Under the pieces are notes generated by a model. That model was not told the DNA's origin. It saw only the letters and a list, made by a program, of their open reading frames with translations, and searched no databases. From an uncultured Clostridiaceae bacterium (GTDB lineage Bacteria; Bacillota; Clostridia; TANB77; CAG-465), in NCBI GenBank assembly GCA_947381905.1, contig CANCXL010000002.1, forward strand, positions 1 through 64,000: DNA of 64,000 nucleotides, given 5' to 3'. The position numbers were made by a program, and so were the translations under genes. Every line of letters begins with the position of its first letter. The stretch's first letter is position 1. Below are positions 1,115 to 62,335 of the stretch, in pieces.

Positions 1115-1123
1115 TATAACATA

Positions 1124-1347
1124 ACGTTGAAGGGACGAGTAAGTATTAACACTGTTACAAGAGAGAGTAAGTCATGGGCTGGAAGCTTACTTTAATAAGA
1201 TTTTACCGAAGACTACCCCGGAGTTAGTAGGAAACTACCGTTGATTTCGTACAATCGTTAAATTAAGTTAAATATTAGGGTGGAACCGTGCAAATATATT
1301 TGTACCCCTATAGACAAAGAATGTGTCTATGGGGGTACATTTTTTGT
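1124..1347 (+). promoter_or_regulatory. T-box riboswitch, threonine (thrS leader)
   Basis: The conserved T-box sequence AGGGTGGAACCGTG lies at 1277-1290. It is followed by a strong terminator, with GTACCCC from 1302 pairing with GGGGTAC around 1332-1338, then a T run. Upstream is a long structured Stem I region, with AGTA-like and GAAG elements and a candidate ACC (Thr) specifier at about 1205-1207. Uncharged tRNA-Thr should pair with the T-box sequence and favour the antiterminator, which allows thrS transcription. The specifier position is by eye; the T-box itself is clear. After the terminator, TTGTTA near 1393 and a TATAAT-rich stretch near 1420 could form a second, weaker promoter. Confidence 0.93.
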
Positions 1348-3245: not shown

Positions 3246-3254
3246 TAAAAAAGT

Positions 3255-3286
3255 GCAGTATATATTTATATACTGCATATTTTTTG
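3255..3286 (+). terminator. Rho-independent terminator of thrS
   Basis: GCAGTATA (3255-3262) pairs with TATACTGC (3269-3276), followed by a T-rich run ending near 3286. Confidence 0.85.
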
Positions 3287-3337
3287 TTTAAATAAAACGT
3301 TTAAATAAAAAAATGACATAAAAATGGTAAAAACTAG

Positions 3338-3366
3338 TTGACATATAAATGTAACAGTGATAACAT
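3338..3366 (+). promoter_or_regulatory. Promoter of first giant surface protein
   Basis: TTGACA at 3338-3343, 17-bp spacer, TAACAT at 3361-3366. The ribosome site AAAGGGG lies a few bases before the ATG at 3397. Confidence 0.7.
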
Positions 3367-3396
3367 ATTGGTGTAAAGAGAAAGGGGATATAATAT

Positions 3397-6300
3397 ATGA
3401 AGATAAAAAATAAAATACTAGTTACAGTATTGATTATGATGCTATGCTTACCAATGATAAGTATGTTTAAAGAATTTTATGCTGCATCATATCCAATGCC
3501 TATAGTTACAAAAGATGAACTTACTGATCATAGAGGACAGAGTGTAACAGGTGAAGATATTATAAACACAGGATTATATTTAGGAACTGTTGGATTTTCA
3601 TATCAAAATGTCGGAACTTGTACAGGATTTGTTGTACGTGTATTAAGATACTTAGAAATTAATCCATATTATGTTTCTAGATCAGGCAAATGGGATGATT
3701 TCTATAATTTAAATAATTGGGATAAAATAGGATCTCATGGATCTCCTTGGGGACCAGGAGGATTAAGTGTAGGTGGAACATATGCTGGTTTTAAAGAACA
3801 AGCAGATAAATATGCGGTTGCTTATATAGGAAAGATTCCATTTGATAAGCAATCAGATAATGCCTATATAAATTCATTAGGAATACAAAACGGTGACTTT
3901 TTAGTTACACCAGAGTTAGATGGAAAAAGTGGACATGTAGCCTTTGCATACTTGCTTAATGGAAACGTTAAGAGTTTGGGCGCAGGAAATAGTGGTATAC
4001 ATATAGGAGATTTAAAAAGCTCACAAAGCAATAAAGAGGGAGATATATATGTATATCGTCTAGTAGATTCTACTAGTAACTTAAAAATAGTAAAAGTAGA
4101 TGAATATAACAAACCTGTTGCAGGAGTTACAATGAAAGTAACAGATGAAAATAGAGTTACAGTAAAAAATACTGATGGAACAGAAATTTTCACAACAGAT
4201 GCAAATGGTGAAATATATATAGAAGGACTTACTGCTGGAAATTATTACATAACAGAAGTTAGTGCCCCTTCAAATTTAATTACAGTAGTAGATGAAATTC
4301 CTGTTGTTGTTGGAGCAGGAGAAAAAAAAGTAACAACAGTTAAAAATAATTATAAAAGAGGAAAAGCAAGAGTACATAAAGTAGACGCTTTAGATGGAGA
4401 AAAAACAAGAGGAGATGCTACATTAGAAGGAGCAGAATACACTTTATATGCAAAAGATGCTATAAGTGAGGGAGCAACATCTAAATATTCAGCTGATGAA
4501 ATTGTAGGTGTATATTCTACAAATAAAACTGGATATACAGAATGGGTAGAAAATCTTCCACTTGGAGAATACTATTGGACAGAAACTAAAGCACCAGTTG
4601 GGTACTTACGTGATACAGAAAAACATTATTTTACAGTATCAATAGATGATAATGAGACAACTAAAGGTAGCACACAAGAAATTGTAAGTGAAGAGCAACC
4701 AATAAATGGTAGAGCAAGAGTTATTAAATTTAATAATGATGAGCAAGGATCATCAGAAAAGAGTCCAGCAGCTGGAGCAGTGTTAAGAATGACACTTGTT
4801 TCATCAAAAACTGCTGAAAATCCAGATGGAATATATTATGAAGTTAAGTTAAATGAAAATGGAGAAGGAGAATTCATTGATGAAGAATTCCATAAAGCAC
4901 ATCCAGATGAAGAATCAACAATTCCATATGGAACATATGAAGTTACAGAAATTGCTGAAAGTGAAGGAAGTGCTTTAACACACTACTTTATTAAACCTTT
5001 AACTTTTAAAGTTGAAGAAAAAGATAAATTATATCCTTTCCACTTAAGTGATGAAATGACTGATAGTTATATAAGAATAGTAAAAAAAGATGAAGTTACA
5101 AAGGAAATTGTAAAAAAATCGGGTGCTAAATTTAAAATTTGGGACGTAGAAAAAAATGAATTTGTAAAATTTATGATGCCTATGTCTGGTGAATTATTTA
5201 CAGAACTAGAAGCAACAGAAGAAGGATATGTAAATACTCCAAGTGAGTTAAAAGCTGGAAAAGAATATATTATATATGAAACAGCAGCTCCAGAAGGATA
5301 TGTTATAAATCCTAAATATGCTTTACCAGAAAAAGAGTCAGACTATGGTAAAAAGAATGGATACAAATTTATCATAAATAAAGAATCATTAAATGTTCCT
5401 GAAAATATTACTTATGATAAAGATAATAGACTTATCTTAATAGTTCCAATTGAAAATCCAAGACCAATGGTAAAATTAACTGTTCATAAAACAGGAGAAA
5501 GATTTACAGAAGTTGCACAAGATTCAGTTACATATAAAACTGGAGATAATGCAAATGATAATCGTACAGAAAAAAGATACACTCCTGTGTTTAAAGAACA
5601 ACCATTACCTGGAGTAGTATTTAATGTTGTAACAACAGAAAGAGTATTAAATCCAATCAAAGATGGTACTTATGTAGAGGCTAATACTATAGTAGATACA
5701 ATAACTACAAACACAGAAGGAAATGCAACAACTATAGAACTATTCCCAGGAACATATAAACTTGTTGAGATTAAAGCTCCAAATGGATATATTGCAAATG
5801 ATAACATTGAACCAATAACTTTAACAAATGATGGTAAGGAAACACCGGTTAAAGAATTCAATGTAGATTTAGCAAATGACAGACAAAGATTAGGGTTAAC
5901 ATTCCCTAAATCATTTGAAAAAGTTAAATTCATAACTGGAGAAAAAGTTGAGCAAAAAGCAACATTTGCAATATATGCAAATGAAGATATAGTAACATAT
6001 GATGGAAAAGTAAAAATTCCAAAGGATGGTTTAGTAGATTTAGTAAAAATTGAAGGAAATGATAATGTTACAAGTAAGATAGATTTACCAGAAGGTAAAT
6101 ACTATGCAAAAGAAGTATACGTATCTTATCCATATACTCCATATGGTGAAAAGATAGAATTTTCTCTACTATATAATAACAATAAACAACCATATGTTGT
6201 TATAGAAGGAAAAGAAATAATTAATACTTATGAAACTTCATCAATAAGTTTAATAAAAATTTCTTCTTCATCTATGCAAAGCGTAGTAATGAAAGGAAAA

Positions 6301-7401
6301 GAAATAGATAAATCTAAACTTGATGAAGAAATAAGCAAAGTTATAGAAGAACTAAATGGAAAAACAGAAGAACAAGTTAAACAATATTTAAAAGATAATA
6401 AGATTATAACTGTAGCAGGAGCAACTTATGGCATTTATACTGATGCAGAATGCAAAAATATCTTAAAAATATTAAATGAAGAAACAGGTGCTTATGAAGA
6501 GGCAAAAGTTGTAACAGATGAATCTGGTATGATTAAACTTGAAGGATTACCTGTAGGAAGCTATTATGTTAAAGAGTTAGAAGCTCCAAATGGATATGAA
6601 TTATCTAAAGAAATAGTTAATGTTAATTTAACAATTGATAATAGAGATGAGATAGTATTTGATGCTTTAAAAGAAGATGGTGTAATAAGTGAATTATTTA
6701 CTAAAATAGACATCTTTGATGGTGAAGAAATACCAAATTGTGTTTTTGATATTTTAGATGAAGATGGAAATTCTATTTTAAAAACTGAAACATCATCTAA
6801 AACTGACGAAGAAGGAAAAGCATATATTCCTAGTGATTTATTCGAAGATGGTAAAACATATTACTATAAAGAAATTTCTGCACCAGAACAATATGACTTA
6901 AATCCAGAACTTCACGCTTTTGTTGCTAAGTTTAACGAAAAAGGTGAATATATAGGTGAAAGAGTTAAAGTAGAGAATACTAGAAAATCTAAAGAACTTA
7001 GAATACTAAAAGTTGATGAAAAAACAGGTGAACCACTTGCAGGCTGTGTATTCTCAATTGCATTACTAGATGAAAATGGAAATGTAAAAACAAGAAAAGA
7101 TGGATCAATTGTATATCTAGTAGAAAATGCAGTAACAGATGAAAATGGTGAATATCTAATAGAAAAAGCATATTATGGAACATATAAATTTACTGAAGTT
7201 CAAGCTCCAAAAGGATATGAAATGAATGAAAAAGATATGGAAGGATATGTATTTACTATAGATAAATATTCAGCAGATAGAATAGACTTTATTGTAACAA
7301 ATACAGGAGATATTGCAGTAATTGCTATAGCAGTAATTGCAGTAGTATGTGTTCTTGGAATAGCATTTGTTATTGTAAGAAATAAAAAAGCTACAAAATA
7401 G
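3397..7401 (+). CDS. Giant secreted Cna-B repeat protein with Cys/His peptidase-like head
   Basis: 1334 residues. A signal peptide covers about 1-30, ending near FYAAS. Residues about 55-225 form an NlpC/P60- or CHAP-like head: GTCTGFVV carries the candidate nucleophile C75, SGHVAFAY the candidate H180, and HIGD (H202) follows. From about 228 come roughly nine Cna-B/SpaA-like prealbumin domains, recognisable from alternating K-x-D strands, Y-x-[VL]-x-E-x-x-A-P hairpins and terminal N-x. Such domains often form Lys-Asn isopeptide bonds. A hydrophobic anchor and NKKATK end the chain. There is no LPxTG; NTGD directly precedes the anchor and may be a divergent sorting motif. The role (adhesin, pilin-like or wall enzyme) is inferred. 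The next gene is a paralogue of the same architecture. Confidence 0.88.
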   Translation: MKIKNKILVTVLIMMLCLPMISMFKEFYAASYPMPIVTKDELTDHRGQSVTGEDIINTGLYLGTVGFSYQNVGTCTGFVVRVLRYLEINPYYVSRSGKWDDFYNLNNWDKIGSHGSPWGPGGLSVGGTYAGFKEQADKYAVAYIGKIPFDKQSDNAYINSLGIQNGDFLVTPELDGKSGHVAFAYLLNGNVKSLGAGNSGIHIGDLKSSQSNKEGDIYVYRLVDSTSNLKIVKVDEYNKPVAGVTMKVTDENRVTVKNTDGTEIFTTDANGEIYIEGLTAGNYYITEVSAPSNLITVVDEIPVVVGAGEKKVTTVKNNYKRGKARVHKVDALDGEKTRGDATLEGAEYTLYAKDAISEGATSKYSADEIVGVYSTNKTGYTEWVENLPLGEYYWTETKAPVGYLRDTEKHYFTVSIDDNETTKGSTQEIVSEEQPINGRARVIKFNNDEQGSSEKSPAAGAVLRMTLVSSKTAENPDGIYYEVKLNENGEGEFIDEEFHKAHPDEESTIPYGTYEVTEIAESEGSALTHYFIKPLTFKVEEKDKLYPFHLSDEMTDSYIRIVKKDEVTKEIVKKSGAKFKIWDVEKNEFVKFMMPMSGELFTELEATEEGYVNTPSELKAGKEYIIYETAAPEGYVINPKYALPEKESDYGKKNGYKFIINKESLNVPENITYDKDNRLILIVPIENPRPMVKLTVHKTGERFTEVAQDSVTYKTGDNANDNRTEKRYTPVFKEQPLPGVVFNVVTTERVLNPIKDGTYVEANTIVDTITTNTEGNATTIELFPGTYKLVEIKAPNGYIANDNIEPITLTNDGKETPVKEFNVDLANDRQRLGLTFPKSFEKVKFITGEKVEQKATFAIYANEDIVTYDGKVKIPKDGLVDLVKIEGNDNVTSKIDLPEGKYYAKEVYVSYPYTPYGEKIEFSLLYNNNKQPYVVIEGKEIINTYETSSISLIKISSSSMQSVVMKGKEIDKSKLDEEISKVIEELNGKTEEQVKQYLKDNKIITVAGATYGIYTDAECKNILKILNEETGAYEEAKVVTDESGMIKLEGLPVGSYYVKELEAPNGYELSKEIVNVNLTIDNRDEIVFDALKEDGVISELFTKIDIFDGEEIPNCVFDILDEDGNSILKTETSSKTDEEGKAYIPSDLFEDGKTYYYKEISAPEQYDLNPELHAFVAKFNEKGEYIGERVKVENTRKSKELRILKVDEKTGEPLAGCVFSIALLDENGNVKTRKDGSIVYLVENAVTDENGEYLIEKAYYGTYKFTEVQAPKGYEMNEKDMEGYVFTIDKYSADRIDFIVTNTGDIAVIAIAVIAVVCVLGIAFVIVRNKKATK

Positions 7402-7415
7402 TTGTTTAATAGTAA

Positions 7416-7450
7416 AATAGACCAATATTTAATATTGGTCTATTTTTATG
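7416..7450 (+). terminator. Rho-independent terminator of first Cna-B protein
   Basis: A long stem centred at about 7430: AATAGACCAATATT pairs with AATATTGGTCTATT, followed by TTTT. Confidence 0.85.
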
Positions 7451-7602
7451 TTTTAATTACTAAATATGTAAACTTTTAATATGGATAAAAGAATGTTTAC
7501 AAAAGCATATTAAAACAAAAATTACAAAAATAAAACAAAAAGATATTTTTAAAATTACAGTAATGTGAAAAAGCTTTTGTAAAAGGCGTATTATATCGAT
7601 TT

Positions 7603-7631
7603 TTAAGATTTTATATGATAAGATATATAAT
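7603..7631 (+). promoter_or_regulatory. Possible promoter of second giant surface protein
   Basis: A perfect TATAAT lies at 7626-7631 with a weak TTAAGA -35 at 7603-7608, 17 bp away. The terminator after the first paralogue implies that this gene has its own promoter. The gap 7402-7660 otherwise shows only AT-rich sequence. Confidence 0.5.
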
Positions 7632-7660
7632 GTAAAATTGAAAAGAAAGGGGATATATAT

Positions 7661-10600
7661 ATGAAACTTAAGAATAAAATACTAGTGGTAATATTGCTTA
7701 TGATGTTTTGTGTACCAGCAATAAATACATTTAATCAAGTTTATGCAGCATCATATCCAATGCCAACAGTTACAAGAGATCAACTTACAACCAATAGAGG
7801 ACAACAGGTAACAGGTGAAGACATAGTAAATACTGGATTTTATTTGGGACATAAATCTGGATTTACATATAATAATGTTGGAACATGTACAGGGTTTGTT
7901 GTACGTGTATTAAGGTATTTAAAAGTAAACATTACATTATGTGATAATGACCCAAATAACTGGAATAGAGACTATTGGGATAGATTCTATTCAGAATCTA
8001 ATTGGGACGTTCCAGGATCACATGGTTCACCATATGGACCAACTGGATTTAAAACAGCATGTGATAACTTAGTTAATAATAAGCAAGCACAATATATAGG
8101 ATATGTTGAAGTTAATAATAGTACAGTAAGAGGCGTTCATCTTGCGGATGGAACTTTTATAAGTGGTGGACAAGATGCTATTGATAAATTAGGAATACAA
8201 AATGGAGACCTTCTAATAACAGTGCCATCAGGAGCAGGAAGAAATGGACATGTTGCTTTTGCTTATAATGTAGATGGACATGCCAGAACTTTAGGAGCTG
8301 GTAGCGCAGGAATTCATATTGGAGACATAGGAAGATATCAGTCAGATAAAGATGGTGATACTTATGTATATCGTTTAGTAGAAGGTGTTATAAGAGAGGA
8401 TGTTAAGTTAGTAAAAAAAGATAGTAATGGTGAAAATGTAGAAGGTGTTACATTTAGAATTACTAGCGAAAAACTAGAAAGTCCAATAACAGCTACTACA
8501 GACGCTAATGGTGAAATCAATTTTTTAGGTGATGATGGATTAGAAATAGGTGAATATACTTTTGAGGAAATTAGTGTTCCTGAAAATATGATAAGACAAG
8601 CAGATCCGATAACTCTAGTTGTGGAAAGAGATAGGGAAAACACATTAACAATAACTAACAGATATCAGACAGGAAGAATTGAATTACAAAAATTAGACTT
8701 ATTAGATGGAAATGTTACTAGAGGAGATGCTACTTTTAAAGATGCAGAATATACTGTATGGGCTAGACAAGATGTAAAACAAGGAAAGAAAACAATTTAT
8801 ACTGCTGGAAGTGAAGTAACAGTAATGATAACAGATTCAGAGGGATATGCATTATCTGAAGAACTTCCTATAGGAGATTATTATGTTAGAGAAACTAAAG
8901 CTCCAAAAGGATATGAATTAGATCCTAACGAGTACGATGTTAAAATAGAATACAAAGGACAAGATAGTGAAACTGCTACTATCCCAAGCTTTATTAGTAA
9001 AGATCATCCAATAAATGGAAGAGCAAGAGTTTTAAAGTGGGAAGATAAAAATCATGAATCTTCAGAAAAAAGTCCAGCAGAAGGTGCAGTTTTAAGAATG
9101 ACTTTAATTTCTTCTATTGAAAAAGGAAATCCAATATATTATGATATTATATTAGACGAAAATGGTGAAGGAGAATTTATAGATAAAAAATTCCAAGCAG
9201 AACATCCAGATGAAGACTCTACAATTCCATATGGAACATATAAAATAGAAGAAATCGTTGAACCTTCAGGAGAGGCCTTAACAGATTATTATATGCAACC
9301 TATAACTTTTGAACTTACTGAAAATAATAAATTATATCCATTTCTAGTAGTTGATGAAGTTACAGATTCATATATAAGAATAGTAAAAAAAGATGAAGTA
9401 ACAAAGAAAGTTGTTGAAGAGGAAGGCGCTAAATTTAAAATTTGGGATGTAGAAGCAGGAGAATTTGTTCAATTTATGGAACCAATATCTGCAAAACCAA
9501 TTACTGAACTTGGAACATCAGATAAAGGGTATTTAAATACACCAGATAAATTAAAGGCTGGAAAAACATATGTTGTATATGAAATTGCTGCTCCAGATGG
9601 TTATGTTATAAATCCAAAATATGCGTTACCAAGTGATAAGGCAGAATATGGAAAAAAGAATGGATTAGAATTTACTGTAAATAAACCAACTATAGGTTCA
9701 CCAGTAGAACTTATTTATGACAAAGATGTAGATTTAATATTACAAATAACTATTGAAGATCCAAGACCAATGGTTAAATTAAAAGTTCATAAAACAGGTG
9801 AAATGTTTACAAATATTTCTCAAACAAATGCACCTGATTCGTTGGGAGAAAGTGGAGCTCAATTATATGAGCCAGTATTTACTAAAGAAAATTTACCAGG
9901 AGTTACATTTAATGTAGTAGCTATGGAAAAAGTTTTAAATCCAAATAAGAGTGGAAACTATGTTGAAGCAGGAACTGTAGTAGATACTTTCACTACAAAT
10001 AATGATGGAATTGGAACATCTAAAGAGCTTTTCCCAGGAACATATAAAGTTGTTGAAATTGATGCTCCAACAGGAATTGTTATAGATCCAAATGGTGTTA
10101 CATATACATTAGAAAATGATGGTAAGGAGACACCTGTAAAAGTATATGAAAAAGAATTAACAAATGTAAGACAGAAATTAGGATTAACATTCCCTAAACG
10201 TTTTGATGAGGTTAAATTTAAACTTGGAGAGGATTATGATGAAGAACCACAAGCAACATTTGCAGTTTATGCAAATGAAAATATCAAAACAGTAAAAAAT
10301 AACAAGGAAATTCCTAAAAATGCATTAGTAGATGTAATAACTGTTAAAGGAAATGGAGATGTTACAACTAATATAGATTTACCAGAAGGAAAATACTATG
10401 TAAAAGAAGTAGCAGCATCATTCCCATATACTATTAATCCTACACAAATTGATTTTGAATTAAGGTATAATGAAAATAAAACACAAGAATATAATATTTT
10501 AAATGGTGAAACATTTACAAATAAAACTGAAACAGCAACAGTAACATTAATTAAAGTTTCTACATCATCAATGCAAAGTGTATTAATTGATGGAGAAAAT

Positions 10601-11695
10601 GTTGATCAAGATAGCATTAAAGAAGAAATGAAAAATATGCTTGAAAAGATTCAAAATATGACAAAAGATGAAGTTAAAGAATACTTTAAAGAAAATGATA
10701 TAAAAGCTGTTCCAGGAGCAACATATGGAATATACTTAGATGAAGCTTGTACTAAAATGCTAAAAATACAAAATGATGTAACAAAAGAATATGAAGATGC
10801 AAAAATAGTTACAGATGAATCTGGTATGATTACTCTTGAAAATATTCCTTTAGGTGAATATTATGTTAAAGAATTAGTAGCTCCAAAAGGATACAAACAA
10901 TCTACAGAGATTGTTAAAGTAGTATTAACAGCTGAAAATCAAGATGGAACATTATATACAGCTTTAAAAGAAGATAAAGTTGTTGATGGATTCATTAAAA
11001 AGACAGATATGTTTGATGGTGACGTAGTACCTAATTGTATATTTACAATCACAGATGAAAATGGAGAAGAGATTTTACGTTCAAAAACATCAGATAAAGG
11101 AATAGCATATATTCCAGCAGATGCATTAGAAAATGGTAAAAAATATTTCTTTACAGAAATTGATGCTCCAGAAGAATATGATTTAAATACTACACCTCAT
11201 CCATTTACAGCTAAAATAAAAGAAGTTGATGGTGAGCTAGTATGGGATGGAGAAATACATAAGGTAGAAAATACTAGAAAACATAAAGAATTAAGAATAC
11301 TAAAAATTGACGAGAAAACAGGAGAACCACTAGCAGGTTGTGTATTCTCAATTGTTCAATTAGATAAAGATGGAAATGTAAAACTAAATGCTGATGGAAC
11401 TGTTTCTTATCTAGTAGAAAATGCAGTAACAGATGAAAATGGTGAATATTTAATAGAAAAGGCATATTATGGAACATATAAATTTACTGAAGTTCAAGCT
11501 CCAGAAGGATATGAACTAAATGAAAAAGATATGGAAGGATATGTATTTACTATAGATAAAGATTCAGCAGATAGAATAGATTTCATTATAACAAATACAG
11601 GAGATATTGCAGTAATTGCTATAGCAGTAGTTGCAGTAGTATGTGTTCTTGGAATAGTATTTGTTATTGTAAGAAATAAAAAAGCTACAAAATAG
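7661..11695 (+). CDS. Second giant Cna-B repeat protein with Cys/His peptidase-like head
   Basis: 1344 residues, a paralogue of the preceding gene throughout. Signal peptide about 1-30; candidate catalytic GTCTGFVV (C76), NGHVAFAY (H197) and HIGD (H219). The head carries a longer insertion (about residues 90-175) than its partner. About nine Cna-B-like domains follow, then the same anchor sequence and NKKATK tail, again with NTGD but no LPxTG. The last domain and anchor are much more alike between the two proteins than the head is. An AAGAAAGGGG ribosome site precedes the ATG. Function is inferred as a cell-surface adhesin or wall-acting enzyme; no sortase gene is visible in the window. Confidence 0.88.
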   Translation: MKLKNKILVVILLMMFCVPAINTFNQVYAASYPMPTVTRDQLTTNRGQQVTGEDIVNTGFYLGHKSGFTYNNVGTCTGFVVRVLRYLKVNITLCDNDPNNWNRDYWDRFYSESNWDVPGSHGSPYGPTGFKTACDNLVNNKQAQYIGYVEVNNSTVRGVHLADGTFISGGQDAIDKLGIQNGDLLITVPSGAGRNGHVAFAYNVDGHARTLGAGSAGIHIGDIGRYQSDKDGDTYVYRLVEGVIREDVKLVKKDSNGENVEGVTFRITSEKLESPITATTDANGEINFLGDDGLEIGEYTFEEISVPENMIRQADPITLVVERDRENTLTITNRYQTGRIELQKLDLLDGNVTRGDATFKDAEYTVWARQDVKQGKKTIYTAGSEVTVMITDSEGYALSEELPIGDYYVRETKAPKGYELDPNEYDVKIEYKGQDSETATIPSFISKDHPINGRARVLKWEDKNHESSEKSPAEGAVLRMTLISSIEKGNPIYYDIILDENGEGEFIDKKFQAEHPDEDSTIPYGTYKIEEIVEPSGEALTDYYMQPITFELTENNKLYPFLVVDEVTDSYIRIVKKDEVTKKVVEEEGAKFKIWDVEAGEFVQFMEPISAKPITELGTSDKGYLNTPDKLKAGKTYVVYEIAAPDGYVINPKYALPSDKAEYGKKNGLEFTVNKPTIGSPVELIYDKDVDLILQITIEDPRPMVKLKVHKTGEMFTNISQTNAPDSLGESGAQLYEPVFTKENLPGVTFNVVAMEKVLNPNKSGNYVEAGTVVDTFTTNNDGIGTSKELFPGTYKVVEIDAPTGIVIDPNGVTYTLENDGKETPVKVYEKELTNVRQKLGLTFPKRFDEVKFKLGEDYDEEPQATFAVYANENIKTVKNNKEIPKNALVDVITVKGNGDVTTNIDLPEGKYYVKEVAASFPYTINPTQIDFELRYNENKTQEYNILNGETFTNKTETATVTLIKVSTSSMQSVLIDGENVDQDSIKEEMKNMLEKIQNMTKDEVKEYFKENDIKAVPGATYGIYLDEACTKMLKIQNDVTKEYEDAKIVTDESGMITLENIPLGEYYVKELVAPKGYKQSTEIVKVVLTAENQDGTLYTALKEDKVVDGFIKKTDMFDGDVVPNCIFTITDENGEEILRSKTSDKGIAYIPADALENGKKYFFTEIDAPEEYDLNTTPHPFTAKIKEVDGELVWDGEIHKVENTRKHKELRILKIDEKTGEPLAGCVFSIVQLDKDGNVKLNADGTVSYLVENAVTDENGEYLIEKAYYGTYKFTEVQAPEGYELNEKDMEGYVFTIDKDSADRIDFIITNTGDIAVIAIAVVAVVCVLGIVFVIVRNKKATK

Positions 11696-15406: not shown

Positions 15407-17884
15407 ATGAAAAATAGATTTAAATTTTTATCTTTAATTATGTGTTTATTTATGATTATGCAAGTAGTTTTGCCATGCTTTGATGTAACATATGCAGTTA
15501 TATCAGATAGTAATACAATACTAATTGCATGTGGAGTAACAATTAAAAATAACACTACTTTAAATCAAGTAGTATCACAATATGGCGCACAGCCAAAAAT
15601 TACAACAAGTTCTGTTTTTGGTGGTACTGCTACTACTTTTTATAAAGAAGGATATGAGGACTTACTTTATATTGAAACAAATGAAGCAGGAATAGTAATG
15701 GCTGCTGGAACTTGTGCTACAGACTTTAAGTCTAATTTGAAGGATTATCATGAACCATTTGATGGAACAGTTCATTTTATGCAAGGATATGTAATAGATG
15801 ATTGGGATGATGGATCAATAGGAGTACTTGCATACAATAATGCAGTAAAAAATGGTATAGAGCAAAAGAAACTATTAGATAAATGGTATTCTAATCAATA
15901 TGAATATGAAAAAAATCTATGTCAACATGCAATTCCAATTGTAAATTGCTATTTAACAAGAGACGGAGATTCTCCAATTGAATTTAACAATGAAATATAT
16001 GATGCTCTTGCAAAAATTGAACAAAATGGAAAAGATTTACAAACTTATGCTGATGAAAACAATAAAACAGATACATATAAAAGAGTAGGATCTGACACTG
16101 GATATCTTGCAACATGGGAAGCATTGCCAAATCCGTTTAGAGCAGCAGATGGTGCTAGTGGATTTAGAGCAACAGAAACAAAAAAATATGGATACTTTAA
16201 ATATCATATAGAGCCTAAAGATACCAATAATTATCTTGCAGAGATAGAAAAATATTATGTTTCAGAAGATCTTATTAAAAAAGGTGGAGAAGAAGTTGCA
16301 CTTACTCAAGACGAGCAAGAAAAATTAGAAGCTGCCAAAGCAATGTATAAAAAATCTGTAGAAGAATTTAATCAAAGTGGAAATATAGATCATCAAATAG
16401 ATCCAGTTTATGATAAAACACCACTTGTTGCTGGAAAAATATATGAAAACAGATTAAAAGGTGCTGTAGATTATCTAAATGCAATTAGAATTGCGGCTGG
16501 ACTTCCAACAGTAAAATATAATGCAACTTTGAGTAATGCTGCACAACATAAATCAGTACTTGTAGTGTATGTAAATAACTTTGCTGGATATACATCAGAA
16601 GAACTAAAAAATATGAATGCGCACTATCCTCCAAAGCCAGATGCAGTATCTCAAGAATTTTATAATACAGCAATGAGCAATATGTCTGCTGAAAATCTAT
16701 ACAATGGAGATATAATTTCTAGTATACCTAATGCAATAAATGATGGATATGGAGACCCAATTACTTGTGGACATAGATACAATTTACTTGAACCATATTG
16801 GACAGACTTTGGTCTTGGTGAGGCTGGAAGACAAAGTACACATAGATTTAGTGGCCCACAGTCATATACAAATGAAATTGTAGCATGGCCTAGTGATGGA
16901 ATAACACCGCTTGAAGCATATTCAGGTGGATATTGGACATGTAAATTTTATAAAAACTATCAAGTAACTGATAGCACTACAATAGATGTAAAAAGATTAA
17001 ATGATAATAAGACATGGAGTTTTAGTGTAAGAACTAAATATGGAGATAATAGATTTCAAGTAAACGGAAATTTACTATCATTTTATAATGCAGATATGAC
17101 AGGTAAAGAAGGCTTAGTATATGAATTTACAATACATAAATTAAGAAATACTCAAACCAAAACATATACAGATTATACATATAGAACAGTATTTAAATCT
17201 ATAAGTGGTGCAGATAAAAAAGTGCTTAAATATCCTGATTTAGTAACATTAGATAAAAATGAAGCTGTAATGAATGTAAATGATAAAATAAATTTAAAAA
17301 CAACATTTAGTGATGATACAACAGAGGTATGTGTTAAATTTGAATCAGATAATGAAGATGTTGCATCTGTAGATCAATATGGAAATGTAACGGCTAATAA
17401 GCTAGGAGAAGCAACAATTACAGTTACAACTTTAAATGATAAAAAAGCAACATGTAAAGTTAAAATAATTGATGGTGTTGCAGTAGATAAAACATCTATT
17501 ACAATGTTTATAGACACAAATGATAGAATTAATGCCATTAATACACAAGGTGAAAAGCTAACATGGAAGTCATCAAATCAAAATGTGGTTTTAGTAGATA
17601 GTAATGGAAATATTACAGCAAAAAATACAGGAAGTGCAACAATTACAGTTACAACATCTAAAGGAAAGAGTGTAACAATAAAAGTTAATGTAATCAAGTA
17701 TTTAAAAGGTGATTTAGACAGAAACGGAATTGTAAATGCAAATGACGCAGCAGTAGCACAGGATTTATATAATGGAACTAGTATAACAGATGAAGACTTA
17801 CAAATTGGTGATATGGATGGAAATGAAGTACTAAATTCAAATGATGCAGCGTTAATATTTGACGTATATAACTCTGGAAAATAA
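15407..17884 (+). CDS. Secreted CAP-domain protein with Ig-like repeats and a dockerin
   Basis: 825 residues. Signal peptide about 1-30. A CAP-associated N-terminal region (about 35-125) resembles the YlbC family. The CAP/SCP-PR1 domain (about 348-475) shows LNAIRIAAGLPTVKYNATLS, SAENLYNG and GHRYNLLEP. Two BIG2-like Ig domains (about 610-765) carry ...SSNQNVVLVDSNGNITA and ATITVTT motifs. Residues about 767-825 are a type I dockerin-like pair of calcium loops: GDLDRNGIVNANDAAVAQDLY and GDMDGNEVLNSNDAALIFDVY. The dockerin implies attachment to a cohesin, none of which is seen here. The ATG follows GAAGGGTG. A close paralogue follows after 47 bp. Confidence 0.88.
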   Translation: MKNRFKFLSLIMCLFMIMQVVLPCFDVTYAVISDSNTILIACGVTIKNNTTLNQVVSQYGAQPKITTSSVFGGTATTFYKEGYEDLLYIETNEAGIVMAAGTCATDFKSNLKDYHEPFDGTVHFMQGYVIDDWDDGSIGVLAYNNAVKNGIEQKKLLDKWYSNQYEYEKNLCQHAIPIVNCYLTRDGDSPIEFNNEIYDALAKIEQNGKDLQTYADENNKTDTYKRVGSDTGYLATWEALPNPFRAADGASGFRATETKKYGYFKYHIEPKDTNNYLAEIEKYYVSEDLIKKGGEEVALTQDEQEKLEAAKAMYKKSVEEFNQSGNIDHQIDPVYDKTPLVAGKIYENRLKGAVDYLNAIRIAAGLPTVKYNATLSNAAQHKSVLVVYVNNFAGYTSEELKNMNAHYPPKPDAVSQEFYNTAMSNMSAENLYNGDIISSIPNAINDGYGDPITCGHRYNLLEPYWTDFGLGEAGRQSTHRFSGPQSYTNEIVAWPSDGITPLEAYSGGYWTCKFYKNYQVTDSTTIDVKRLNDNKTWSFSVRTKYGDNRFQVNGNLLSFYNADMTGKEGLVYEFTIHKLRNTQTKTYTDYTYRTVFKSISGADKKVLKYPDLVTLDKNEAVMNVNDKINLKTTFSDDTTEVCVKFESDNEDVASVDQYGNVTANKLGEATITVTTLNDKKATCKVKIIDGVAVDKTSITMFIDTNDRINAINTQGEKLTWKSSNQNVVLVDSNGNITAKNTGSATITVTTSKGKSVTIKVNVIKYLKGDLDRNGIVNANDAAVAQDLYNGTSITDEDLQIGDMDGNEVLNSNDAALIFDVYNSGK
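17543..17862 (+). repeat. 320-nt tract identical to 20029-20348 (copy 1)
   Basis: This part of the CAP-dockerin gene covers most of the last Ig-like domain and the dockerin. It appears identical base for base to 20029-20348 in the next gene, although the N-terminal halves of the two proteins have diverged strongly. A less perfect match extends upstream to about 17485. This suggests recent gene conversion or a shared duplicated module. Confidence 0.9.
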
Positions 17885-17931
17885 AGAGAATATTATAAAA
17901 TATAAAAAATGAAAGGATATATCTATAAAAA

Positions 17932-20370
17932 ATGTATAAAAATGTAAAAAGAATAGTTCTTGTTAGTTGTTTAATAATGATATTAAATGTAATAGTACCT
18001 ACAATTTATCATGTACAAGCTATAATAAATGATAATTCTATTCTAATTAAAAGTAGTATTATTAATATTACCAAAAACACTAGTATCGAAAGTATTAATA
18101 ATGCTTATGGACATGAGGCAAACATTATTACGCCAACACCACATGGTGGACATGCATATACATGGTATAAACAAAATTATACTGACTTAATATATATAGA
18201 AACAAATGAAAATGAACAAATTGTTTCAGCTGGAATTTGTGCAAATGGTTTTGAATCAACTCTATGTTCATATGAAGATAAAAAAGTAACTACAGATGAA
18301 TATATGCAAGGTGCTATAATAGATAGAAGACAAAATGGCATAGAAGGATGTATTGTTTATAATAAAGATAGAGTTAATGCTAAAAAATATATAGAAGAAT
18401 ATATGAAATCACCAACAAGTTATGATAAATATTTAAGTAAGCATTCTATAGCAATTGTAAACCAATATCTTATAAGCCGTGGAGCTGTTGAAGTTATTTT
18501 TGATGAAGAACTATATGATAAAGTTCAAAGAATAGAAGATTTAGGACTAGACATAAGAGAATATGTTAAACTTAATGATAAGGAAGGAAAATACATAGAA
18601 ACACAACGAGATTCTGGATATGATTCACTTTATGAAGCTTTACCAAATCCTATTAGACTTGCTGCTACTGCACATAGATTTAATTCAAGTGAAGAGTGTA
18701 AATATTTATATATGAGGTATCATATAAAAGATCCAAAAGGATCTGCAGATGGAGCAAGTATACGTTCTATATATCTTTCAAAAGATGTAGTTTGCGATGA
18801 TAACGAAAAAGTAGAGCTTACAAGTGATGAGAAAGAAAAATATAATAATTCTAAAAAAATATATAAAGATTCACTTAATATATTTAACGATGGAATTACT
18901 AGTTATTTAAAAAAGAACTATAATTATCAAAGTTTACCACTTATAGCAGGTGAAATTTATGAAAATAAATTAATTGGTGCTACTAAGTATCTTAATGCAA
19001 TAAGAGCTGGAGCTGGTCTTCCTGAAATTGAATATGATAAAAGTCTTTCAGAATATGCGCAACATAAATCTGTTTTGACAGTATATATGACACAAAATAA
19101 AATTCCAGTATCAGATGCGCATCGTCCTCAAAAACCTGATGGAGTTGATGATGATTTTTATAATAAAGCTATGAGTGGAATGGATGGAGAAAATTTATAT
19201 CAAGGTTCAATAATAACATCTATTTCAAATGCATTAAATGATAGTGCAGGAGACGCCATAACTTGTGGACATAGATATAATTTGTTAAATCCAACTTGGA
19301 AATATATAGGTATAGGAAGTGCAGAAAATCAATCATGTCATAAGTTTTCTGGATATCAATATTGGAGTGGCAACGCTGTTGCATGGCCAAATATTGGTGT
19401 AACTCCAACAGAATCTTTTACTGGTGGATATTGGTCATGCAAAATGTATAATTTTTCTACAACATCTAATACAACAATAGAGGTATTAAGGCTTAATGAT
19501 AGAAAAAAATGGAATTTTAGTAATAGAACAACAATTGGAAATAATAAATTGTATGTAGAAGATAAATATATATCTTTTTATAATGCAGATTTAGCATGCA
19601 AAGATGGATATGTATATCAAATTACAATTCATAATATAGATAAGGGAAATGGAAATATAGGGGATTATACGTATAGATCTGTATTTAAATCTTTAGAAAA
19701 AGAAGAAACTATTATATACCCAGAGTACATAGATATAGACAAGAGCAACATTACTATTTTTGTTGATGAAAAAGAGCAAATAACACCAAGCTTTCAAAAT
19801 GGAGCAACAGAAATTGCAACAGATTGGAGCTCTTCAAATGAATCTATAGTTGAAGTTTCTCAGTATGGAATTATAACCGCTAAGAAGAATGGGGAAGCAA
19901 CAATCACAGTAACAACTTTAAATGGTAAAAAAGCAACATGTAAAGTGAAAGTCATTGGTGGGGTATCGGTAGATAAAACATCTATTACAATGTTTATAAA
20001 TACAAATGATAGAATTAATGCTATTACTACACAAGGTGAAAAGCTAACATGGAAGTCATCAAATCAAAATGTGGTTTTAGTAGATAGTAATGGAAATATT
20101 ACAGCAAAAAATACAGGAAGTGCAACAATTACAGTTACAACATCTAAAGGAAAGAGTGTAACAATAAAAGTTAATGTAATCAAGTATTTAAAAGGTGATT
20201 TAGACAGAAACGGAATTGTAAATGCAAATGACGCAGCAGTAGCACAGGATTTATATAATGGAACTAGTATAACAGATGAAGACTTACAAATTGGTGATAT
20301 GGATGGAAATGAAGTACTAAATTCAAATGATGCAGCGTTAATATTTGATGTATATAACTCTGGACAATAA
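17932..20370 (+). CDS. Second secreted CAP-domain/Ig-like/dockerin protein
   Basis: 812 residues with the same plan as the preceding gene. Signal peptide about 1-30; CAP-associated region; CAP domain (about 345-465) with LNAIRAGAGLPEIEYDKSLS, MDGENLYQG and GHRYNLLNP; BIG2-like Ig domains from about 610; dockerin from about 754. The N-terminal two thirds are only moderately similar to the first paralogue, the last third nearly identical. AAAGGATAT is the nearest ribosome site. With no terminator between them, the two are probably co-transcribed. Confidence 0.87.
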   Translation: MYKNVKRIVLVSCLIMILNVIVPTIYHVQAIINDNSILIKSSIINITKNTSIESINNAYGHEANIITPTPHGGHAYTWYKQNYTDLIYIETNENEQIVSAGICANGFESTLCSYEDKKVTTDEYMQGAIIDRRQNGIEGCIVYNKDRVNAKKYIEEYMKSPTSYDKYLSKHSIAIVNQYLISRGAVEVIFDEELYDKVQRIEDLGLDIREYVKLNDKEGKYIETQRDSGYDSLYEALPNPIRLAATAHRFNSSEECKYLYMRYHIKDPKGSADGASIRSIYLSKDVVCDDNEKVELTSDEKEKYNNSKKIYKDSLNIFNDGITSYLKKNYNYQSLPLIAGEIYENKLIGATKYLNAIRAGAGLPEIEYDKSLSEYAQHKSVLTVYMTQNKIPVSDAHRPQKPDGVDDDFYNKAMSGMDGENLYQGSIITSISNALNDSAGDAITCGHRYNLLNPTWKYIGIGSAENQSCHKFSGYQYWSGNAVAWPNIGVTPTESFTGGYWSCKMYNFSTTSNTTIEVLRLNDRKKWNFSNRTTIGNNKLYVEDKYISFYNADLACKDGYVYQITIHNIDKGNGNIGDYTYRSVFKSLEKEETIIYPEYIDIDKSNITIFVDEKEQITPSFQNGATEIATDWSSSNESIVEVSQYGIITAKKNGEATITVTTLNGKKATCKVKVIGGVSVDKTSITMFINTNDRINAITTQGEKLTWKSSNQNVVLVDSNGNITAKNTGSATITVTTSKGKSVTIKVNVIKYLKGDLDRNGIVNANDAAVAQDLYNGTSITDEDLQIGDMDGNEVLNSNDAALIFDVYNSGQ
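20029..20348 (+). repeat. 320-nt tract identical to 17543-17862 (copy 2)
   Basis: Partner of the tract in the preceding gene. The first difference on the left is the codon just before ACACAAGG; on the right it is a GAC/GAT synonymous change. Confidence 0.9.
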
Positions 20371-33582: not shown

Positions 33583-33614
33583 TTTTATTCCTCCAAGTTC
33601 TGATTCTAACGCAA
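33552..33614 (-). promoter_or_regulatory. Stem-loop enclosing the ribosome site and start of the 59-codon gene
   Basis: In the minus-strand mRNA, TTGCGTTAGAATCA (33614-33601) can pair with TGATTCTGACGCAA (33565-33552). All 14 positions pair, one of them as G-U. The 35-nt loop contains GGAGG and the ATG; the 3' half of the stem is coding sequence (codons 6-10). This could control translation or mRNA stability. The rest of 33615-33770 is plain AT-rich sequence with a likely promoter containing TATAAT on the minus strand near 33700. Confidence 0.62.
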
Positions 33615-33775
33615 GTATATGCTAGTTTGTATATTAATTGTTCTAGATATTTCTTAAAAATTATTTTATAAAATATAAAACATATAACTTAACTATATTA
33701 TATCACAATTTACATAAAATTTAAAGCTTTGGATTATTTCATGAAAAATATTGAAATATAATTTAATTTGTATAT

Positions 33776-33860
33776 AAAAAAGTAGAAGGAGATTATAAAA
33801 ATCTCCTTCTATGATACATAAAAGATATATAGGTCTATAAAATCCCATTTCCCATATATC
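33776..33860 (-). ncRNA. Tandem small RNA copy C
   Basis: Promoter: TTGAAA (plus-strand 33890-33895), 17-bp spacer, TATAAC (33867-33872). Hairpin GATATATGGG (33860-33851) with CCTATATATC (33833-33824); terminator stem TAGAAGGAGA/TCTCCTTCTA (33811-33783) followed by TTTTTT. The changes in the terminator stem relative to the other copies are compensatory (C replaced by T and the partner G by A), so pairing is kept. Confidence 0.78.
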
Positions 33861-33898
33861 AATTATGTTATAGCATAAATATAACTAATTTTCAACAT

Positions 33899-33946
33899 AA
33901 GTGACACATGTATAAAAAAGTAAAGTGACACATATATAAAAAAGTA
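33899..33946 (+). repeat. 24-bp perfect-length tandem duplication
   Basis: AAGTGACACATGTATAAAAA and four more bases at 33899-33922 are repeated at 33923-33946 with one mismatch (G to A). It sits between small RNA copies C and D and covers the end of copy D's terminator tract. Confidence 0.85.
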
Positions 33947-34021
33947 AAAGAAGATTATAAAATCTCCTTTTACGATACAACATAAGTATATAGGTATTTA
34001 AAAAGCCATTTTTCTATATAC
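33938..34021 (-). ncRNA. Tandem small RNA copy D
   Basis: Promoter: TTGAAG (plus-strand 34051-34056), 17-bp spacer, TATACT (34028-34033). Hairpin GTATATAGA (34021-34013) with CCTATATAC (33994-33986) and a loop matching copy A (AATGGC, U run). Terminator stem GTAAAAGGAGATT (33973-33961) with the region 33956-33944, then TTTTT. Confidence 0.77.
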
Positions 34022-34123
34022 ATTTATAGTATAACATTGTTTTGCTAAATCTTCAACATAAATATCTAATTGGTTTTCTTAAGATTATACATAAACATTA
34101 AAATTACATATTAATTATAATAT

Positions 34124-34146
34124 TTATCATAGTTTTTATCATAGTT
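34124..34146 (+). repeat. 11-bp direct repeat abutting hisS promoter
   Basis: TTATCATAGTT occurs at 34124-34134 and 34136-34146. The second copy runs into the -35 hexamer, so this may be a regulator site or chance in AT-rich DNA. Confidence 0.5.
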
Positions 34147-34173
34147 GACAATAAAAAATAATTATTGTATAAT
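34145..34173 (+). promoter_or_regulatory. Promoter of hisS leader transcript
   Basis: TTGACA at 34145-34150, 17-bp spacer, TATAAT at 34168-34173: a perfect consensus promoter. Confidence 0.88.
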
Positions 34174-34201
34174 ATAACCAGTTGAAAGGAGTAGAATAAA
34201 A

Positions 34202-34267
34202 ATGAATAAACAAATAAAAATAAACACATTAGCACATCATCATATTTATTCTATGTCTGCGTTATAA
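34202..34267 (+). CDS. hisS leader peptide with three consecutive His codons
   Basis: A 21-residue open frame, MNKQIKINTLAHHHIYSMSA plus Leu, starts behind AAAGGAG and ends with TAA at 34265-34267. Three CAT codons lie at 34235-34243. A terminator and then hisS follow. This arrangement fits ribosome-mediated attenuation: slow translation of His codons when charged tRNA-His is scarce should prevent termination. CACATCA at 34233-34239, overlapping the His codons, can pair with TGATGTG at 34302-34308, so a stalled ribosome would block that helix. No T-box sequence is present. The exact antiterminator is not resolved. Confidence 0.72.
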   Translation: MNKQIKINTLAHHHIYSMSAL

Positions 34268-34280
34268 TTTTAAAAATAAC

Positions 34281-34351
34281 TCAGGCATAGTTTGTTGTGC
34301 CTGATGTGTGATATAACTTACACGTAAGGCCAAAAACTTACGTGTTTTTTT
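34281..34351 (+). terminator. Attenuator hairpins and terminator of hisS leader
   Basis: A first hairpin pairs TCAGGCA (34281-34287) with TGCCTGA (34298-34304). The terminator pairs ACACGTAAG (34320-34328) with CTTACGTGT (34337-34345), followed by TTTTTTT. The first hairpin shares bases with the alternative pairing of TGATGTG to the His codons, so the two are mutually exclusive. Confidence 0.85.
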
Positions 34352-34416
34352 ATTATTATTAAAATATTGTAATAAAAAAATATTAATTATAAATTAAGAT
34401 TGAAGGAGAGATAGAA

Positions 34417-35733
34417 ATGGAAGAAATAAAAAGAGTTGAACCAAGAACATTAAGTGGATTTATGGAACTATTACCACAAGATCAAATAAAATTTAACGAA
34501 ATGTTACAAACAATAAGAAAAACATATGAATTATATGGATTTTTACCACAAGAAACACCAATAATAGAAGCGTCAGAAGTATTACTTGCAAAAGCTGGAG
34601 GAGAAACAGAAAAGCAAATTTATTCTTTTAAAAAAGGAGATAAAGATTTAAGTCTTCGTTTTGATTTAACAGTACCTCTTGCAAAATATGTAGCAGAATA
34701 TTATAATGATTTAACTTTCCCATATAGAAGATATCAAATTGGTAAAGTATTTAGAGGTGAAAGAGCACAAAAAGGAAGATATAGAGAATTTTATCAATGT
34801 GATATAGATATAATTGGAGATGGAAAATTAAGTATAATAAATGATGCAGAAATACCAAGTATAATATATACAACATTTAAAAACTTAGGATTTTCTAATT
34901 TTGTTATTAAAATAAATAATAGAAAGATACTAAATGGTCTATTTGATGAGCTAGATATTGCTGAAAAAATGACAGATATATTAATAATTATAGATAAACT
35001 TGAAAAAATAGGTATGGAAGCAGTAAAGGAAGAATTATCTAAATTAGGATTAGACAACGATAAGATAGAAAAAATAGAAGAGTTTTTAAATATTTCTGGA
35101 ACAACAGATGAAAAAATAGTAAAACTTAATGAATTAAACTTTAATAGTGAAATATTTAAAAAAGGATTAGAGGAGCTAACAGAAGTAATAAAATATGTTA
35201 GATTATTTAAAGTAGATGAAGAAAACTTTGTAATAGATTTAACAATTGCAAGAGGACTAGACTATTATACAGGAACAGTATATGAGACAAATTTAAAAGG
35301 ATATGAGTCAATAGGCAGTGTTTGTTCTGGAGGAAGATATGAAAATCTTGCAGGTTATTATACTAAAAAGGATTTACCAGGAGTGGGGATTTCAATAGGA
35401 CTTACAAGACTTTTCTATAACTTAAAGGAATTAGGACTTCTTGCAACTAAACAAAAATCTATTTCAAAAATAGATATAATAACAATGGGTGTAGGAGTAG
35501 AAAATGCCGTTGAAATATCTAATGTATTAAGAGACAATAATATACCAAATGAGATATATAAAGAAGATTCTAAAACTAAAGCAAAATTTAGTTATGCAAA
35601 TAATCTTGAAATTCCATATGTAATTGTAATTGGAGAAGAAGAGCTACAAACTAAAAAATATACTCTTAAAAATATGGTTACAGGAGAGCAAGAAATGTTA
35701 ACAATAAATGACATTATATCAAGAATAAAATAA
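34417..35733 (+). CDS. hisS: Histidyl-tRNA synthetase
   Basis: 438 residues; charges tRNA-His. Class II motifs: RFDLTVPLAKYVAE, YRREYQ-type motif 2 RYREFYQCDIDIIG, and the HisRS-specific ARGLDYYTGTVYE and SVCSGGRYENL; a C-terminal anticodon-binding domain (IDIITMGVG onwards) is present. The full set of HisRS motifs argues against the regulatory paralogue HisZ. Expression is probably controlled by the leader-peptide attenuator upstream, which is unusual for this phylum where T-boxes are the rule. Confidence 0.95.
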   Translation: MEEIKRVEPRTLSGFMELLPQDQIKFNEMLQTIRKTYELYGFLPQETPIIEASEVLLAKAGGETEKQIYSFKKGDKDLSLRFDLTVPLAKYVAEYYNDLTFPYRRYQIGKVFRGERAQKGRYREFYQCDIDIIGDGKLSIINDAEIPSIIYTTFKNLGFSNFVIKINNRKILNGLFDELDIAEKMTDILIIIDKLEKIGMEAVKEELSKLGLDNDKIEKIEEFLNISGTTDEKIVKLNELNFNSEIFKKGLEELTEVIKYVRLFKVDEENFVIDLTIARGLDYYTGTVYETNLKGYESIGSVCSGGRYENLAGYYTKKDLPGVGISIGLTRLFYNLKELGLLATKQKSISKIDIITMGVGVENAVEISNVLRDNNIPNEIYKEDSKTKAKFSYANNLEIPYVIVIGEEELQTKKYTLKNMVTGEQEMLTINDIISRIK

Positions 35734-35740
35734 TTAATAT

Positions 35741-35776
35741 AAGAGCTAGTAGATATTATCTATTAACTCTTTTTTA
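35741..35776 (+). terminator. Rho-independent terminator of hisS
   Basis: AAGAGCTAGTAGATA (35741-35755) pairs, with two mismatches, with the region 35758-35772, followed by a T run. Confidence 0.75.
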
Positions 35777-35839
35777 TATATTAGTTTATGTAAAATTGTA
35801 GCGAAAATAATAGTAAAATATAGCTATTTGCATAAGCTA

Positions 35840-35886
35840 TTGACAAAATTAGTACAAGTGTGCTAAAATTAGTACAGTTGTATAAA
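35840..35886 (+). promoter_or_regulatory. Promoter with two tandem operators for the TetR cassette
   Basis: TTGACA at 35840-35845 and TAAAAT at 35864-35869 (18-bp spacer). TTAGTACAAGTGTGCTAA (35849-35866) is an imperfect palindrome lying between the two hexamers, and TTAGTACAGTTGTATAAA (35869-35886) is a related site over the start point. Their centres are 20 bp apart, two helical turns. The placement suits autorepression by the TetR protein encoded next. Confidence 0.68.
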
Positions 35887-35900
35887 AAGGAGAAAAAATT

Positions 35901-61363: not shown

Positions 61364-62302
61364 ATGAAACTAGATTTTTGTGATGTTATAGTAACAGATG
61401 ATATTGAAAATGCAAATTGTATAACTCATAGTGGAACATTTCACGCTGATGAGGTATTTGCAACTGCTTTTTTATCACTATTATTTGAAAGGATAAATGT
61501 TTGTAGAGTAAACGAGGTACCAAAAAGTAAGGTAGGCAGTAGTGCAGTTGTTATATATGATGTGGGGCTTGGAGAGCTTGACCATCATCAAGTAGGTGGC
61601 AATGGAGAAAGAGAAAATGGAGTTATGTATGCTGCATGTGGTCTTGTATGGGAAAAATATGGAAGAAACATTTTATCCAAAATTGGAGTTGAAGATAAAG
61701 ACATAGAATATGTACATAGTCAAATTGATAAAAATTTAATTCAATTTATAGATGCAAATGATAATGGTATTACACCTAATATTTCTACAGATTATAATTA
61801 TGTAACACTTGCAAGTATAATTGCATCTTTTAATCCAATATGGAATGAAAATATTAATCCAAATGATAGATTTTATGATGCTGTAAAATTTGCTAAAGTT
61901 ATAGTAGAAAATTTTGTTTTAAAAGAGATTGCAAAATCTCAAGCAAAAGAGATAGTAGAAGAAGCTATTAAAAATAGTGAAAATAAAATAATGGTACTTG
62001 ATAGATATATGCCATGGAAAGACTTTATATTAAATTCTAATAACTTAAAGGCAAAAGAAATATTATATGTTGTATTTCCTTCTAATAGAGGTGGATACAA
62101 CGTTTATACAGTCCCTAAAGAGCATGGAAGCTTTGAAAATAGAAAAAGCCTTCCAAAAGAATGGTCAGGATTAAGAGATGAAGAACTACAAAATAAGACA
62201 GGAGTAAAGACTGCAAGATTTTGTCATATTGCATGTTTTATATGTACAGCAGAAACTAAAGAAGATGCACTTGAGCTTGCAAACTTAGCAGTAAAATATT
62301 AA
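61364..62302 (+). CDS. MYG1/UPF0160-family DHH-type hydrolase
   Basis: 312 residues. ITHSGTFHADEVFATAFL at the N-terminus, VIYDVGLGELDHHQVG and IQFIDANDNG are the metal-binding motifs of the MYG1/UPF0160 family, metal-dependent hydrolases related to DHH phosphoesterases and 3'-5' exonuclease-like in eukaryotes. Its role in bacteria is unknown. AGAGGAG precedes the ATG. Confidence 0.87.
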   Translation: MKLDFCDVIVTDDIENANCITHSGTFHADEVFATAFLSLLFERINVCRVNEVPKSKVGSSAVVIYDVGLGELDHHQVGGNGERENGVMYAACGLVWEKYGRNILSKIGVEDKDIEYVHSQIDKNLIQFIDANDNGITPNISTDYNYVTLASIIASFNPIWNENINPNDRFYDAVKFAKVIVENFVLKEIAKSQAKEIVEEAIKNSENKIMVLDRYMPWKDFILNSNNLKAKEILYVVFPSNRGGYNVYTVPKEHGSFENRKSLPKEWSGLRDEELQNKTGVKTARFCHIACFICTAETKEDALELANLAVKY

Positions 62303-62304
62303 CA

Positions 62305-62335
62305 AAAAGAACATATCACATTGATATGTTCTTTT
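62305..62335. terminator. Bidirectional terminator
   Basis: AAAAGAACATATCA (62305-62318) pairs with TGATATGTTCTTTT (62322-62335). Serves both the MYG1-like gene and the convergent ferritin-like gene. Confidence 0.9.

Follow-up and report, generated by a model that had tools for sequence, protein, structure and literature searches.

Leader region upstream of hisS

In the window, by which we mean the whole 64,000-nucleotide stretch analyzed here, the plus-strand gene hisS (34417–35733) encodes a histidine–tRNA ligase (398.5 bits against TIGR00442, cutoff 286.75, with an additional match to Pfam PF13393) and is preceded by a series of expression signals on the same strand. A sigma-70 promoter, TTGACA-17 nt-TATAAT (34145–34173), matches the consensus in 12 of 12 positions and is the only one to do so among the 18 promoter-like sites between 33600 and 35900. 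It is followed by the Shine-Dalgarno sequence GAAAGGAG (34184–34191), invariant in the 11 sequences of set A1, and by an open reading frame (ORF) of 21 codons (ATG at 34202, TAA ending at 34267) for the leader peptide MNKQIKINTLAHHHIYSMSAL, in which codons 12–14 are three adjacent His codons, CAT CAT CAT (34235–34243). An HHH run occurs in only 3 of the 883 short ATG-initiated ORFs in the window, two of these three being nested; over the genome as a whole, CAYCAYCAY is found at 215 sites. An intrinsic terminator with the stem ACACGTAAG/CTTACGTGT and the loop GCCAAAAA (34320–34345, T tail to 34351) lies between the leader ORF and hisS and ends 66 nt ahead of the latter; from shuffled sequences, 0.2 terminators are expected over the whole 2.3 kb region (33600–35900). 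The fold of the leader has a z-score of -5.06 and was equaled by none of 200 shuffles. The first-pass annotation, which was made from the letters alone, had described a consensus promoter, a 21-residue peptide with three His codons and a terminator ahead of hisS, and all these elements are indeed in place.

Several other features of the window were recorded. Upstream of the hisS promoter, the minus strand carries an intergenic tandem pair of similar terminator-like hairpins (AGAAGGAGATT..AATCTCCTTCT; 33783–33811 and 33944–33973). At 3397–11695 (~1340 aa each) and 15407–20370 (812–825 aa each), tandem genes encode two pairs of large proteins that are repetitive and apparently secreted, those of the second pair ending in what look, by eye, like dockerin repeats. 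A weak match to the OrzO-P antitoxin RNA at 62258–62335 (29.9 bits, gathering score 60, E 1) is probably due to chance.

Mutually exclusive helices and the position of the ribosome

The leader RNA contains six plus-strand segments, A to F, with alternative pairing partners. Segment A (CACAUC, 34233–34238) lies within the His codons and, in the minimum free energy fold of the untranslated RNA, pairs with GAUGUG at 34303–34308; all six pairs are present in each of the 11 A1 sequences, with zero variation. This is the helix over the His codons that the first-pass annotation had noted as an option. Segment B (CUAUGUCUG, 34251–34259, with an extension to ~34263) pairs with segment C (CAGGCAUAG, 34282–34290), which can instead pair with UGUGCCUG at 34296–34303. 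Segment D (GCCUGAUGUGU, 34299–34309), part of which is bound by A when the ribosome is absent, forms the antiterminator with segment E (ACACGUAAGGC, 34320–34330). The latter consists of the 5' arm of the terminator and the conserved GGC of its loop, and pairs with either D or segment F (CUUACGUGU, 34337–34345), which together with the U tail (to 34351) makes up the 3' half of the terminator and is invariant in A1. The conservation of the loop GGC is explained by the use of these bases in the antiterminator D:E. The helices thus form a chain, B:C, C:D, D:E and E:F, in which each pairing excludes its neighbor; as isolated hairpins, they have computed energies of -14.3, -10.5, -13.4 and -11.9 kcal/mol, respectively.

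The dependence of the fold on the position of the ribosome was computed with a masked partition function, whereby the RNA upstream of and beneath the ribosome is removed codon by codon and the rest is folded. The probability of the terminator is 0.03 and 0.04 when the A site is at His codons 12 and 13, respectively; on the third His codon (14), it is 0.36, and at all codons from 15 onward it is 0.96–0.98, about the value obtained with no ribosome (0.97). For assumed footprints between 9 and 16 nt, the switch point shifts by about two codons at most and stays near the His run. By this computation, the formation of an antiterminator incompatible with the terminator depends on a ribosome located at the control codons. 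The same profile was obtained for 9 of the 11 homologs, with weaker switching in the remaining two (L010 and L011). When the spacer was subjected to 1000 dinucleotide shuffles as a control, 6 of the shuffled versions switched just as completely and, therefore, the single sequence taken alone is suggestive rather than probative.

Conservation of the leader within the genus

HisRS of the type encoded by this hisS is present in 15 genomes of the genus, namely, the source genome and 14 other members. An HHH leader precedes hisS in 14 of the 15 (G000, G004, G005, G006, G007, G011, G012, G014, G016, G019, G020, G074, G090 and G079), in each case with a Shine-Dalgarno sequence; the exception is G008, where hisS of this type has no leader. 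Relatives that retain the terminator but have lost the His codons, which would have spoken against the attenuator originally proposed, were sought and none was found: all 14 leaders keep the peptide, the His codons and the terminator. Across the A1 sequences, the N-terminal half of the peptide is free to vary, unlike the His codons and segments B to F; the residues I/N-YSMSA that follow the His run are kept in 13 leaders.

The comparison of relatives that the first-pass annotation had suggested also revealed covariation. In a set of 14 sequences, which includes the diverged G079 and G008 leaders, 94% of the cells are paired in the antiterminator state (B:C plus D:E), with five pairs changed on both sides, a number reached by none of 500 shuffles; slid control structures were at most 55% paired. 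For the terminator state, the fraction of paired cells is 97.5%. Among the compensatory changes are U-A to C-G replacements in the pairs adjoining the B:C core. Most helix positions are invariant in the main group of 13 leaders, so that the covariation comes from the B:C extension and the two diverged leaders. One of these, in G079 (MKVITINTHVHHHG), scores 46.9 bits against R1, a covariance model of the leader; its computed terminator probability is 0.00 at all four His codons, rises to 0.70 one codon later and reaches 0.87 at the stop codon.

The genus is split with respect to this enzyme: some members have a canonical HisRS without an attenuator, and others have a second HisRS, ~33% identical to the first, with one; G008 has both types and, in G003, no HisRS was found. 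In the six genus members with the canonical HisRS, hisS is preceded by neither the leader nor the attenuator terminator. Outside the genus, no His leader was detected among 77 other loci for HisRS of the present type in the sampled genome contigs, nor before this gene in the genomes of the family and order that were inspected, with the exception of G034; the inspected loci that lack the peptide also lack an attenuator terminator before hisS. In this genome, from another family of the order, an unrelated His-leader attenuator precedes hisS (L170 read as reverse complement, 1993–2150). It consists of MNFQFVNNNKIVVVKAHHHVGYLSC and a terminator and follows the same logic with an unrelated sequence, the antiterminator pairing into the terminator loop; the terminator probability dips to 0.42 at the third His codon and to 0.07 just after it.

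His leaders in front of other genes

A search of 38 relatives with R1 produced one match per genome, located before hisS in all cases except G008, where the match precedes another gene. This diverged leader, MKNIIKYKMAHHHIVTMFAL, lies upstream of pepD, encoding a beta-Ala-His dipeptidase (386 bits against TIGR01893, cutoff 343.75), so that the genes under such leaders, hisS and pepD, are both histidine-related. The locus (G008:C26, L141:2065–4555) comprises the copy of the hisS leader, pepD and a gene of the DapF fold, which is most similar to histidine racemases, at a score (79.8 bits) so far below the cutoff (300) as to provide a lead only. Possibly, pepD and the DapF-fold gene form a histidine-scavenging operon.

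The closest relatives of this pepD in G005, G014, G020 and G003 are the last genes of amino-acid ABC transporter operons (SBP_bac_3, BPD_transp_1, ABC_tran). At the head of each of the four operons is a short ORF with His codons, together with a terminator (MRNILNNKGYNHHIK in three genomes, MKLVFLNNSIHHHRRSL in G003). When the taxonomic family was searched for the solute-binding protein, it was detected in four genomes, the very ones that have the ABC-pepD leader. The models that match the transporter are divided among Lys/Arg, cystine, Gln and His transporters, histidine being one candidate substrate among several. In two genomes, G003 (L168, G003:C7:2500–10500 as reverse complement, 1946–5589) and G004 (L169:389–2581), the ATP-binding protein of an amino-acid ABC transporter and a PepD-like dipeptidase are joined in one protein (731 aa); in G005, G014 and G020, the ATPase and the dipeptidase are separate genes. 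No His leader lies ahead of the pepD paralogs of G000 and most other relatives, which share 31–36% identity with the G008 protein.

The leaders of G008, G003 and G005 contain the same chain of B:C, C:D, D:E and E:F helices made of different sequences, with at most 6 of 1000 shuffles equaling each helix. In the computed nascent RNA, the antiterminator probability falls from 1.00 and 0.70 at the His codons to 0.04 thereafter in G005, from 0.98 to 0.12 in G008, and from 0.96 to 0.49 in G003; in a weakness of the model, a ribosome at the stop codon likewise favors the antiterminator in G008. At equilibrium over the full-length leaders of G003, G005, G020 and G008, the strong terminator wins at every ribosome position and, accordingly, the switch in these genomes would have to be kinetic.

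The recurrence of the same design, in other sequences, before pepD in G008 and before the ABC-pepD operons of four relatives makes a small histidine-starvation regulon likely. A broader reading, which we favor with some reservation, is that His-codon attenuators form a family whose members spread to different histidine genes of this one clostridial genus and constitute a translation-sensed histidine-starvation regulon that includes the non-canonical HisRS, an amino-acid ABC transporter with beta-Ala-His dipeptidase (in some genomes as a fusion with the ATPase), and pepD with the histidine-racemase-like gene. The leader would then have accompanied the replacement of the canonical, unattenuated hisS.

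Alternative explanations and the proposed mechanism

We considered three alternatives to attenuation by a ribosome that senses charged tRNA-His. Arrest of the nascent chain, as in the erm and tna leaders, would make the His run incidental, with HHHIYSMSA stalling the ribosome in response to another signal, such as a drug or a metabolite. The conservation of I/N-YSMSA in 13 leaders speaks for such a mechanism; the codons for these residues, however, form the B helix, so that RNA pairing accounts for their conservation. Furthermore, the His codons are retained in other leaders built in the same way, with different residues behind them (HHHG, HHHRRSL, NHHIK and HHHIVTMFAL), and the genes under their control all belong to histidine metabolism or amino-acid uptake. 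We therefore regard nascent-chain arrest as very improbable.

Less probable still is a degenerate T-box or another riboswitch that binds tRNA or a metabolite. The genome does use T-boxes, as the first-pass annotation had assumed for synthetase genes including thrS, but a search with RF00230 found five, before pheS, valS, argG, thrS and ileS, and none before hisS. No Rfam family matched 34184–34351 at E 5, including the His_leader family RF00514, which had no match up to this E-value before hisS; the thrS T-box in the same window (1118–1312; 69 bits, E 6.8e-13) was detected. Since the score of this T-box is below the gathering score of 93, the window yields no hit in an Rfam scan with default settings. 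Just as implausible is a plain terminator, or the 3' end of a small RNA, next to a chance ORF, with no regulation of hisS: although a few spacer shuffles equal the native sequence in switching, the order promoter, peptide, switch and hisS is maintained in 14 genomes, His codons and helices are conserved together, some pairs have changed in a compensatory manner, and the design recurs ahead of other histidine genes.

Thus, hisS is very probably controlled by a ribosome-mediated transcription attenuator that senses the supply of charged tRNA-His; the earlier proposal of such attenuation in a clostridium agrees with every comparative test run on these sequences. The promoter, the leader ORF and the terminator are presumably in use, and histidine shortage would be the signal. 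A ribosome would translate the 21-codon leader behind the RNA polymerase. When His-tRNA is scarce, it would wait at the His codons, leaving B free to pair with C, and D with E; D:E would keep E from F, so that no terminator forms and hisS is transcribed. With ample His-tRNA, the ribosome would advance over B, C:D and E:F would form, and transcription would end before hisS. In the absence of leader translation, A would pair with D around B:C, and the terminator would form as well. In the relatives, the same design appears to control also pepD and the operon of the amino-acid ABC transporter and pepD.

Relation to known attenuators

The his attenuator of Escherichia coli and Salmonella (RF00514) consists of a leader peptide with a His run and segments A to F, of which B:C and D:E lead to readthrough, and C:D and E:F to termination. 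The leader described here shares the His-codon run, the alternative segments and the same two sets of pairings, but differs in its target, hisS as opposed to the his operon, in the number of His codons, three as opposed to seven, and in the untranslated RNA, where A:D forms around B:C instead of A:B.

Among Firmicutes, a His leader peptide has been predicted before hisS* and hisZ of Bacillus (Naville & Gautheret 2010, PMC2965389), and the same authors noted that regular leader peptides replace T-boxes in this phylum (PMC2965389). Going by the description, these cases resemble ours in having a His-codon ORF and a terminator before a gene of the HisRS family; hisS*, however, is an extra paralog of Bacillus, where the main hisS keeps its T-box, whereas here the regulated gene apparently encodes the sole HisRS in its genome (one match), from a different class. 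Predicted His-leader attenuators of his operons have been described in the Bacillus cereus group, Peptostreptococcaceae and Erysipelotrichales (PMC9413887), in a paper that found no RF00514 in Firmicutes and from which hisS is absent. Those clostridial and other Firmicute leaders are similar to the present ones and have 3–5 His codons, but they control his biosynthesis operons rather than hisS or, as in the relatives, pepD and transporter-pepD operons. Another aminoacyl-tRNA synthetase gene, cysS of Alphaproteobacteria, is preceded by the uORFC-8-2 motif, likewise a leader-peptide attenuator recognized through comparative genomics, but with Cys codons (PMC8632094). For a Firmicute, experiments support ribosome-mediated attenuation by the leucine-rich peptide of the Staphylococcus aureus ilv-leu operon (PMC5794164), which differs in the use of Leu codons and in its biosynthetic target.

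The class of mechanism is already known, and a His leader ahead of hisS has a precedent among Firmicutes in the prediction for Bacillus hisS* (PMC2965389). What is new, as far as the literature searched shows, is the lineage, the targeting of an apparently sole HisRS, and the dipeptidase and transporter targets; a search for pepD with leader peptides found no paper. In this well-resolved example, an aminoacyl-tRNA synthetase gene has apparently come under peptide-leader attenuation although T-boxes still serve other synthetases of the lineage, and the six-segment scheme known from the his attenuator of enterobacteria recurs in unrelated clostridial sequences. The leader is absent from Rfam, and its alignment could seed a new family. 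The gene neighborhoods point to peptide scavenging, by pepD, the ABC transporter and the candidate racemase, as a route of histidine supply in these small-genome gut bacteria, a reading that would provide testable functions for unannotated operons.
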